From the NCBI GenBank assembly GCA_003565625.1, contig PXBD01000016.1:1-64000 (forward strand): 64,000 bases of DNA, in the 5' to 3' direction. The DNA comes from Gammaproteobacteria bacterium. GTDB lineage: Bacteria > Pseudomonadota > Gammaproteobacteria > Xanthomonadales > Wenzhouxiangellaceae. The notes below the pieces were generated by a model. It worked only from the letters and a program-made list of their open reading frames with translations, ran no database searches and was not told the origin of the DNA. The position numbers were made by a program, and so were the translations under genes. Shown piece by piece: positions 8,735-11,121 of the stretch. Position 1 is the first letter of the stretch; each line of letters starts with the position of its first letter.

Positions 8735-11053
8735 TCAAAGCGGTCTGAGAACATGGGCCAGCCAGCGCAGCCCGCGGTATTCTCGGTAGCCGCGGGTGCG
8801 CGCCGAGCCCATCAGGAACTCTCGCCCTGCCAGCGTGATGATGCTGGAGCAGGCCGTGCCGGGGGCCAGGGCCTCGGCCTGGGGCGGCAGTTCCAGCCGG
8901 GTGTCTTCGCCCAGAATGCTTGCATCCGTGCTCTCGATAATGCGGCCGTTGCGGTCGCTGTAGACCGCCAGGCTGCCGGGGACGGGTTCCCCGGCATCAT
9001 CATGCGGCAGGCAGGCGGCGAGGATTGTGTCGGCCTCGGTCTGCCAGTCGAACAGAATCCCCAGGGCGCCGATGGCATCGCCGGTGCGCGCGCCGCGGGC
9101 GCGAATGCCGCCGGCGTAGATTAGTGACAGCGGCTGGTCGGGCTCCAGCGCGGAGCGGGCTACGTCCTGGACCACGAAGGCGGTGCTGGCGCGGGTTGCC
9201 ATGGCCTCGCTGAACCACTCGTGGGTGCCCACTTCGATGGCGGCCATGGTTTCGCGCTGGGCTTGGTCGGACGAGGCGACGATGCGGCCTTGGGCATCGG
9301 CCAGGACCAGGTTGCGGTACATGGCGTAGCTGTTGTTGATCACCGCCAGCCGCTCCGAGGCGCGCTCGAACGCGCCCTGTTCGGGCTCCATCAGCGCGCT
9401 CCAGAAGTACTCGTCGGTTGACCACCAGCGCACGTCGGCGGCGCGCTCGAACAGGTTGCGGTCGATCAACTCGATGGCCTGGCGGGCCGAATTGGCCATG
9501 GCCTGGCGAATCAGCTGGAATTCACTGGCGGCCATTTCACCGAGCAGGTGCTCCATCTTCTGGGTAACGGCATCACCGGTGCGGGTGATCTCGTCGAACA
9601 CCGGTCCGAGGCTGAGCCCTTTGCGGCCCAGGCGCGAGGCGAAGATGATGCCGTTGAGCGAGATTCTCTGGATCGCGAACTTGTCGTCCTGCACGGCCTC
9701 GAAAGCGCGCCGGTTGGTCTCCGGAATCAGGTTGGACTGCATCAGGGCTTCGCGGTCGAGCAGTTGTTCTTCGTCCGCGCTGTCTGCGGTGGCAAAGATC
9801 GAGCGCCGGTCGGCAATCAGGTGCGAGCTCCAGCCCAGCCCGGGATAGTCCAGATAGCCGTCGGTGGCGGCCGAATAGATCACCGCTTCGCGCCCGGCGA
9901 TGACCGCATCGCTGCTGGCTCTTTGGCCATCTTGAAGCTGGCGGTGGGCCCGCGGCAGGGCCACGCGCTGCCCGACCGGAAACAGGAAGTCGTCGCTGGA
10001 GGCAATGACGACGTCATCGCGATCGGTCAGCAGGCTGTACCAGCCTTCGAGGATGGCGCCGGCCTCGTCCCGGGGCATGAAATCGTCGAGGATGAGACGG
10101 GCCTCGCCCTGGAAATCGAAGAAAATGCCCATTACTCCGATGGCTTCGCCGTGCACGGTCGAGCCGCGGCGGATGGCGGTGCTGTAGACCAGGCTGGCGG
10201 GCTCGCTCTCGATGCGCGAGGCGCTCAGGTCTTCGGCGTGATACTGGTCGCCGTCTTTGAGGCCCAGCGCTGCGCTGAACCAGTGCTCATCGGCGATGTT
10301 GAGCCCCAGCACCTGCTCGCGGCGCTGCGGGTTACTGCTGGCCAGGACGTGCCCGGCCCGATCGGTAATGACCAGGTCGCGGTACAGGGTGTAGCTGTGG
10401 CGAATGTCTTCAAGGCGGCGGCAGGCCAGGGCAACCGCGCGGTCGAGATCGCCGAGGCTGGCCCTGGCCTGCTCGACGGCCTCGGCCGCGGCCGCGTCCA
10501 GGCCATGGCCGGTGGCCGGCAGGGCCTGGAGCAGCGCACGGCGCCAGTCCGGGCCGGCCAGGTTCTCCGCCAGGTCTTCGAGCAGGCCGTGCAGTTGTTC
10601 ATCAGCGTCCGGCAGTGTGCGCTGCAGTGCAGCGAGCCGGGACTGGATGGTTTCGGCCTGGACCACGCACTGGGCAAAAGAGGTTTCCAGCGCCCACCAG
10701 CGCACGTCGCAGGTCCGTTCCAGCAGGTTGCGGTCGACCAGGTTGACCTTGATGTAGGCGGTGTCGAGGTGAATGGCGCGCGAGAACTCGGCCTTGGCCC
10801 GGTAGAAGTCGCTGAACAGCTCGGTGGTGACTTCCAGCAGGCGCCGGGCAAAGGTCTCGGCGCGTTTCATCAGGCCAATCAGCTGATCGCGTTGGGCGGC
10901 CGTGGAACTGATCTCGATGGCCCGGCACTTGCCCTGGTTGCAGATCGGCACGACGGTGTTGAGTTCGCTGGCGACCTGCTCGTAAAAGGCCCGATGATCG
11001 CTGGACACCACTGGGTCGTGCACCGAGTACCGAGTGCGACTGTCTCCGCTCAC
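8735..11053 (-). CDS. Soluble protein with two tandem Cache-like sensor modules
   Basis: 772 aa from a GTG start chosen because gggagg (11065-11060) lies 6 nt upstream; a TTG at 11059 would abut that site. No signal peptide or transmembrane helix is seen. Two homologous modules occupy about 106-418 and 530-772. Each opens with an amphipathic helix and DRNL[LF]ER..DVRWW, then SY..YR.LV..D..G...ASS, an HWFS/EWFS motif, IG..GI.FD(F/W) and a final GY.(D/E)Y.GL.W. These patterns resemble Cache sensor domains of chemoreceptors and cyclases. Between them, residues 465-489 resemble the conserved tip of a methyl-accepting hairpin (LN..I.A.R.G..G....V.DE). No kinase, GGDEF or CheW output domain is visible. 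Function unknown; a sensory adaptor is an inference. Confidence 0.75.
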   Translation of the reverse strand: MSGDSRTRYSVHDPVVSSDHRAFYEQVASELNTVVPICNQGKCRAIEISSTAAQRDQLIGLMKRAETFARRLLEVTTELFSDFYRAKAEFSRAIHLDTAYIKVNLVDRNLLERTCDVRWWALETSFAQCVVQAETIQSRLAALQRTLPDADEQLHGLLEDLAENLAGPDWRRALLQALPATGHGLDAAAAEAVEQARASLGDLDRAVALACRRLEDIRHSYTLYRDLVITDRAGHVLASSNPQRREQVLGLNIADEHWFSAALGLKDGDQYHAEDLSASRIESEPASLVYSTAIRRGSTVHGEAIGVMGIFFDFQGEARLILDDFMPRDEAGAILEGWYSLLTDRDDVVIASSDDFLFPVGQRVALPRAHRQLQDGQRASSDAVIAGREAVIYSAATDGYLDYPGLGWSSHLIADRRSIFATADSADEEQLLDREALMQSNLIPETNRRAFEAVQDDKFAIQRISLNGIIFASRLGRKGLSLGPVFDEITRTGDAVTQKMEHLLGEMAASEFQLIRQAMANSARQAIELIDRNLFERAADVRWWSTDEYFWSALMEPEQGAFERASERLAVINNSYAMYRNLVLADAQGRIVASSDQAQRETMAAIEVGTHEWFSEAMATRASTAFVVQDVARSALEPDQPLSLIYAGGIRARGARTGDAIGALGILFDWQTEADTILAACLPHDDAGEPVPGSLAVYSDRNGRIIESTDASILGEDTRLELPPQAEALAPGTACSSIITLAGREFLMGSARTRGYREYRGLRWLAHVLRPL
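9587..9661 (-). other. Chemoreceptor-tip-like segment inside the double-Cache gene
   Basis: Encodes residues 465-489 (SLNGIIFASR then LGRKGLSLGP and VFDEI). Spacing of Leu-Asn, Arg, two Gly and Asp-Glu matches the signalling-tip consensus of methyl-accepting proteins, but it is short and flanked by sensor modules. Confidence 0.4.
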
Positions 11054-11115
11054 CTTCAACCTCCCTTGGTCGAGCCGCGTCCACCCCGGCGGGGATGGAC
11101 AAGCCTCAAGGGGAG

Positions 11116-11121
11116 ATTATA
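11116..11121 (-). promoter_or_regulatory. Predicted -10 of the double-Cache gene
   Basis: A perfect TATAAT on the minus strand between the gcvP stop and the gene start, about 63 nt before the GTG codon. No strong -35 is seen. It suggests that the gene is transcribed independently of gcvP. Confidence 0.45.

Follow-up and report, generated by a model that had tools for sequence, protein, structure and literature searches.

The minus-strand gene X of the window (the whole 64,000-nucleotide stretch of DNA analysed here) probably encodes a soluble, membrane-free chemosensory input protein, a receptor or something receptor-like, that acts on CheW and CheA through a modified tip and takes its inputs from two dCache domains. 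Its relatives in bacteria and methane-producing archaea, together with their neighbour genes, suggest that X senses intracellular conditions and feeds chemotaxis-type signalling. In this family two dCache domains without membrane helices lie behind, not before, a chemoreceptor-type hairpin. The account of X as a cytosolic receptor or receptor-like sensor on CheW/CheA is the most economical one for its domains, for the homology of its tip to that of methyl-accepting chemotaxis proteins (MCPs), for an operon-like linkage to cheA and cheW in planctomycetes and for one fusion to CheW.

Architecture of the gene and its product

The features on which the analysis rests are the following, with residues numbered throughout on the 774-aa open reading frame counted from TTG 11059.

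11060..11066, minus strand: AGGGAGG, ribosome-binding-like, six bases before GTG 11053 (read off the sequence)
8735..11059, minus strand: coding sequence of the tandem helix-Cache protein X (open reading frame, translation, full-length homologs and alignment)
10745..11059, minus strand: N-terminal segment of module 1, family-conserved, residues 1-105
10715..10735, minus strand: family motif DRNLLER ahead of Cache 1, residues 109-115
9785..10495, minus strand: dCache domain 1, residues about 189-425
9422..9724, minus strand: predicted helical hairpin, residues 446-546 (AlphaFold2 and fold matches)
9587..9673, minus strand: altered MCP-tip segment IQRISLNGIIFASRLGRKGLSLGPVFDEI, residues 463-491 (profile, register and fold comparisons)
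9443..9463, minus strand: family motif DRNLFER ahead of Cache 2, residues 533-539
8738..9412, minus strand: dCache domain 2, residues about 550-774

The reading frame is real and open over its full length, and its GC content (66.6% vs 64.9% for the window) is ordinary. GTG 11053, giving 772 aa and lying six bases past AGGGAGG, is the likelier start, and it fits the gene ends given in the original prediction. X lies between two genes of the window's genome that we take, by recognition, to be gcvP and a tricorn/S41-type protease gene. A TATAAT upstream of X had been read as a sign of independent expression; the hexamer is indeed present on the minus strand (11121-11116), but a search for a two-hexamer promoter there gave no match, the upstream hexamer being missing, and independent expression is thus unsupported. 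The TATAAT (window 11116-11121) sits just past the gcvP stop on the minus strand. Given that no upstream hexamer accompanies it, co-transcription of X with gcvP, 74-80 bases away, is possible.

The two homologous modules first proposed for X align to each other at 36% identity in self-BLAST (E=1e-41), and both halves have the dCache fold that the proposal called for. X matches dCache_1 (PF02743) in Pfam in two stretches at E=2.2e-16, passing the curated cut-off. Also as proposed, X has no membrane helix (top 19-residue Kyte-Doolittle mean 1.21) and no GGDEF, kinase or CheW domain in Pfam at E<=10. NCBIfam returned no match to X, a PDB sequence search returned just an unrelated reductase (E 1.6), and a PDB search with the six-row family profile returned none. 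Membership in Diacid_rec, an intracellular Cache family, was considered and rejected, with E 0.17 in X and 0.028 in the best relative, below the cut-off. The modules look like tandem helix-Cache units akin to soluble single-module proteins, not like two membrane receptors.

Only one tip-like hairpin is detectable in X, which bears on the original idea that X may join chemosensory arrays. Residues 1-105 hold an LN dipeptide at spacing 75, as in several single-module proteins. A second tip in this segment was rejected, since hhalign gave E 0.13 and 0.23 against single-module hairpins; the value against MCPs was 0.04, and the predicted structure of the segment (AlphaFold2) is of low confidence.

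The hairpin and its altered tip

The middle segment of X is tip-derived, as originally proposed, by a margin greater than chance in profile score, shuffle and window tests. The MCPsignal comparison suggested for it came out in two parts: neither X nor any of the six family alignment members matches PF00015 at E<=10, but a homologous tip emerges from profile comparison. Once the Cache and the DRNL motif are cut out, the score of the tip profile is 20.4 for single-module hairpins, a value that 0/300 column shuffles reach, and 17.2 for MCPs, which 5/300 reach; among 72 windows along X, the best eight in each of the two comparisons contain the tip, whole or in part. By hhalign the X-family hairpin profile matches single-module hairpins at E 0.005 (6 rows) or 0.0007 (14 rows) and these in turn match MCPs at 1e-27 to 1e-28, whereas the direct match of the family to MCPs is weak (E 0.03). 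The 14-row and single-module profiles omit L058, L060, L061 and L067 (the same loci as L005, L008, L009 and L006), L066 (a 65-aa fragment), L083 (motif unmatched), L049 (a near-copy of L034) and L032 (Rhizobium plasmid, tip outside the open frame).

When the tip profile was run against the 786 other proteins of the fetched loci, 36 of the 40 best non-family matches had the motifs of tip-Cache, MCP or two-module proteins; the pool of such tip-bearing relatives and MCPs numbers 55, some of them overlapping copies. As a control, the reversed profile placed 15 such proteins among its top 40, seven being two-module (best E 0.12); for the N-terminal profile the number was 12 of 40. Hypergeometric values for these lists would count related proteins as independent, and no probabilities are given. 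Rank 19 in the real list is an unrelated enzyme. A recognisable tip is held by 21 of the 23 non-family matches at E<=0.15, and in 19 of these 21 the tip Asn is exactly in register, one being shifted by three residues and one lying elsewhere (judged by hand).

The model of residues 436-560 has two helices and a turn at 477-484 (mean pLDDT 68.5). With arms predicted at 446-476 and 485-546, it seems too short to form the canonical bundles of adaptation helices with methylated glutamates. In a Foldseek search of the PDB the top four rows and 9 of the 11 top rows are chemoreceptors (6s1k_E being assigned to them by its residue numbering), at E-values of 0.3-0.5 for the top four and 0.3-0.9 over the chemoreceptor rows, which are not significant. 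VIA-align lays the model on Tsr (1qu7_B) ungapped with N469 onto residue 381, a number that 8c5v_I and 6s1k_E repeat and a register identical to that from sequence; its Z of 7-8 (7.0-7.3 in the Tsr-register rows) falls in the range of unrelated helical bundles and is not significant alone. Several unrelated helical proteins outrank these chemoreceptors by Z.

The tip is altered in a consistent manner. All 14 full-length members, X included, keep the equivalents of Tsr N381, G390 and G393 unchanged and have K/R at position 388. The equivalent of 382 is Gly in 14/14 full-length members vs Ala in 32/32 single-module tips, and that of 385 is F/Y in 14/14 vs Glu in 32/32; Pro at 398 and Phe at 400 are likewise found in 14/14. 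Position 394 is mostly D/V/E/G, and Leu in X. Tsr E385 is presumably an interface residue. Tsr R394 touches CheA (PMC6746300). X has an equivalent of neither residue and, since the MCPsignal comparison fails as well, it is not to be filed as an MCP, though it probably works like one. Mean column identity is 81% in the hairpin region vs 72% over the whole protein, and this conservation above the protein average, together with tip positions that are altered yet invariant, argues on sequence grounds for modified function rather than decay.

Relatives, neighbour genes and descent

Full-length relatives occur in Methanolobus (L005, L008, L009) and in planctomycete MAGs (L006, L007), with 46-50% identity across the whole alignment; BLAST gives 44-51% identity to X for every full-length relative. 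A six-row profile matched 9/237 genomes of the archaeal class, eight at full length and one as a 65-aa fragment. The fragment (L066 1483-1677, archaeal genome G702) is a 65-codon remnant of the gene's C-terminal end, all that is left there, and the X-type gene thus seems to have been lost in G702. In the class of L006 the same profile matched 26/347 genomes, four with the full-length form and 23 with a single-module form, one of them having both; the single-module open frames there span 364-455 aa, with one of 229 aa. In the window's class a distant two-module form (667-891 aa) is present in four genomes besides the window's own, with 369 searched. A survey of 200 relatives, own genome counted, found matches in three other genomes, all of the same order, all single-module and one broken: that copy (L012 9417-9983) has an in-frame stop and a truncated frame, and two genomes of the same genus carry intact ones. 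A paralog search of the window's genome (assembly 89.5% complete) returned only X, and none of 40 pattern stretches on viral contigs was confirmed as a relative. On plasmids a single-module relative was found in 9/72,556 records, four of them annotated 'methyl-accepting chemotaxis protein', and no CheW-fused relative was found; in the order of G429 the CheW-fused form is present in 1/4 genomes, the one already known.

The soluble family with an MCP tip followed by a dCache (L071-L094; L027-L034, L049) is widespread and mostly about 340-390 aa long; in these single-module proteins, receptors of a very short type, the sensor follows the tip. Their order is MCP tip, then [DVI]RNL.ER..D.RWW, then dCache. 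MCPsignal is matched above its cut-off in all five that were scanned (E 1.3e-14 to 1.3e-20), and dCache_1 in one of them too. They align with X in one piece, from the tip to the end in L010 (residues 450-774, E 3e-29) and over the tip and second Cache in L028 (residues 466-774, E=3e-42). Membrane helices are absent from the nine tested.

A tree of 59 Cache modules resolves the family's module 1, its module 2, the distant gammaproteobacterial modules and the single-module proteins into one group each, with support of 99-100/98-100; besides the loci omitted from the profiles, the tree omits L007, L011, L059, L063, L073 and L092. This grouping fits a two-module gene passed as a unit among the window, planctomycete and archaeal lineages, and the distribution of X suggests the passage of an entire receptor between bacteria and archaea. 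X is absent from the fetched stretch in 19/19 other genomes of the genus, in agreement with the survey of 200 relatives, and in 12 of them the two neighbour genes are separated by only about 0.1-0.65 kb, which leaves no room for X. Because the neighbours are that close in those 12 loci and X is in none of the 19, X was likely inserted in the window's genome, probably by horizontal transfer.

The original prediction asked whether homologs are linked to che genes, and the answer is divided: some relatives are (the planctomycete cheA-cheW-X loci and a CheW fusion), but no linkage was found in the archaeal loci or in the window. A hybrid cheA, cheW and X stand in this order on one strand in all five planctomycete full-length loci (HMM on six-frame ORFs); as L006 and L007 nearly duplicate each other, with CheAs 97% identical, the cases amount to about four independent ones. 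In both L006 and L007 the stop codon of cheW overlaps the start of X, and in L095 the two are one base apart. The four CheAs scanned in Pfam have HATPase, CheW and receiver domains, and the three complete ones Hpt also; CheW is Pfam-confirmed in L007, L095 and L097, and the genome of L006 has a PF01584 match. A six-frame HMM search found no MCP in the fetched 9.6-19 kb of the five loci, where L006 starts inside cheA and L007 covers only about 1.2 kb before it. A protein kinase gene precedes cheA-cheW-X on the same strand in L095 (2934-4388), with a weak C-terminal receiver match below the Pfam cut-off. The fusion is in the gammaproteobacterial relative L047, one of four distant two-module proteins, which ends in a CheW domain (E=1.5e-14).

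Elsewhere, six-frame searches found no cheW, MCP or clear cheA beside X in the archaeal L005, L008, L009, L098 and L099, in the gammaproteobacterial L044, L045 and L046 (which have no fusion) or in the window; L009 and L046 gave generic histidine-kinase matches only. Single-module planctomycete neighbourhoods have che genes in only 2/11. At the genome level CheW and MCPs are present in 11/11 homolog genomes searched and in the window's own, and in the archaeal class CheW is found in 9/9 genomes with a match vs 122/237 overall, the independence of the nine being doubtful. In Methanolobus a small gene follows X on the same strand (L008 10512-10931, L009 10422-10898) that by eye has the look of a potassium channel (TTIGYGD, selectivity-filter-like).

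The window's genome has at least three CheA kinases, two in a che cluster on contig C68, which by recognition we take to be flagellar in part, and one ChpA-like; a Pil-Chp-like system lies on C7/C63. A dedicated extra CheA on C63 was considered as the partner of X and rejected, as it reads as the C-terminal part of the ChpA-like CheA. The ChpA-like CheA spans L111 8302-10680 and L112 1-2808 (contigs C63 and C7), and on each contig the gene call reaches a Pro-Glu repeat at the contig end, so that the C63 CheA probably belongs to Pil-Chp. It seems to be one kinase split by an assembly break rather than two.

Mechanism, rival readings and known systems

X is built of two modules, each a helical segment followed by a dCache, with the helical segment of module 2 a hairpin derived from an MCP tip. 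As we infer the mechanism, the Cache domains would bind small molecules in the cytosol, the signal would travel back through the helix to the hairpin, and its altered tip would dock on the CheW/CheA ring and change CheA activity. In planctomycetes the partners of X would be the hybrid CheA and the CheW whose genes stand directly upstream of it; the window protein is an orphan that would need one of the three or more CheA kinases of its genome. A bolder version, possible though doubtful, holds that the family represents a horizontally spread chemosensory pathway without canonical MCPs, made up of a hybrid CheA, a divergent CheW and a cytosolic two-dCache receptor with a re-engineered tip (385 aromatic, 398 Pro), and deployed as a three-gene system in planctomycetes and as a stand-alone plug-in receptor in archaea and gammaproteobacteria. 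If X is the receptor of cheA-cheW-X, the cluster would be a small soluble three-protein chemosensory system, and control of CheA by a tip without the usual interface residues would become directly testable.

X might instead be an adaptor or array modulator that takes its place between ordinary MCPs, either silent or inhibitory, and tunes arrays to cytosolic ligands, an unlikely reading but one with which several observations agree: the tip has no equivalents of E385 and R394, the gene is an orphan whose genome encodes chemosensory systems of its own, a CheW fusion occurs in one of the four distant two-module relatives, and CheWS (PMC10653840) is a precedent for tuning through a CheW domain. 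A dedicated receptor fits better, because planctomycete X sits with its own cheA and cheW and with no MCP in the fetched stretches. A still less probable reading makes the hairpin the vestige of an ancestral MCP, now a dimerisation stalk only, with output outside Che, for example through archaeal neighbour histidine kinases. The changed interface residues would suit a vestige, as would the lack of che genes in all five archaeal neighbourhoods examined and the two PAS-type histidine kinases near X in L009; however, the equivalents of 381 N, 382 G, 390 G, 393 G, 398 P and 400 F are kept in 14/14 members from two domains of life, and the operon-like cheA-cheW linkage and the CheW fusion also speak against a mere stalk.

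The suggestion in the original prediction that X is a relic of two fused receptors, in its full form two transmembrane receptors that lost their membrane helices and have no present function in the window's organism, is very improbable. One chain does hold two Cache modules, and the full-length gene is found in none of the surveyed relatives of the window nor at the 19 genus loci. But X is open and full length, its architecture is conserved in planctomycetes and Methanolobus, and so in two bacterial phyla and archaea, and the two-module layout recurs in a second gammaproteobacterial branch. Further, each module forms a single tree group, the hairpin is conserved above the rest of the protein, and the single-module relatives lack membrane helices as well.

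Among known systems, the soluble MCPs (class IV cytoplasmic chemoreceptors such as Thermotoga maritima Tm14, PDB 3g67/3g6b) share with X solubility and a hairpin with an LN..[IV].A.[RK].G..G tip, and the three best Foldseek matches of the hairpin by itself are to Tm14 (E 0.3-0.4). X differs in having no MCPsignal match, short arms, an altered tip, a Cache on the C-terminal side of the hairpin and, ahead of all this, another helix-Cache module. The single-module proteins (e.g., WP_008345706.1 of a Caballeronia plasmid) are about 27-36% identical to module 2 of X, with the same order of hairpin, [DVI]RNL.ER..D.RWW and dCache and no membrane helix; unlike X they have one module and a canonical tip above the MCPsignal cut-off. 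DosM of the F9 cytoplasmic arrays (PMC7534058, PMC9321776) is likewise soluble and tandem, but has two full MCP signalling domains, usually without a sensor, whereas X has two sensors and one detectable, altered tip; with no PF00015 match and no detectable N-terminal hairpin, X is not of the DosM type. CheWS, the SAM sensor of Treponema denticola arrays, is an array-attached cytosolic sensor whose CheW domain has a counterpart in L047, but X has no such domain and its sensor is a dCache, that of CheWS being CheR-like (PMC10653840). The CheW domain that marks sensors such as CheWS and CheV is thus absent from X and present in L047. The dCache_1 sensors of DctB, Mlp24 and PctA have the fold common to both halves of X, but they are extracytoplasmic and precede a membrane helix, whereas the Cache domains of X lie behind a helical segment with no membrane helix.

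Published work describes Cache domains as principally extracellular (PMC4822843), mentions archaeal cytoplasmic receptors with C-terminal ligand domains (PMC9680633) and counts 30 undescribed CheW architectures (PMC10653840). A description of the C-terminal-Cache architecture of X was not found in the literature searched, and neither it nor the CheW-fused layout is claimed as unreported. Each ingredient of X is known; its novelty lies in how they are combined, with the Cache placed after the hairpin, the module repeated in tandem, the tip altered and the cheA-cheW-X cluster free of MCPs.
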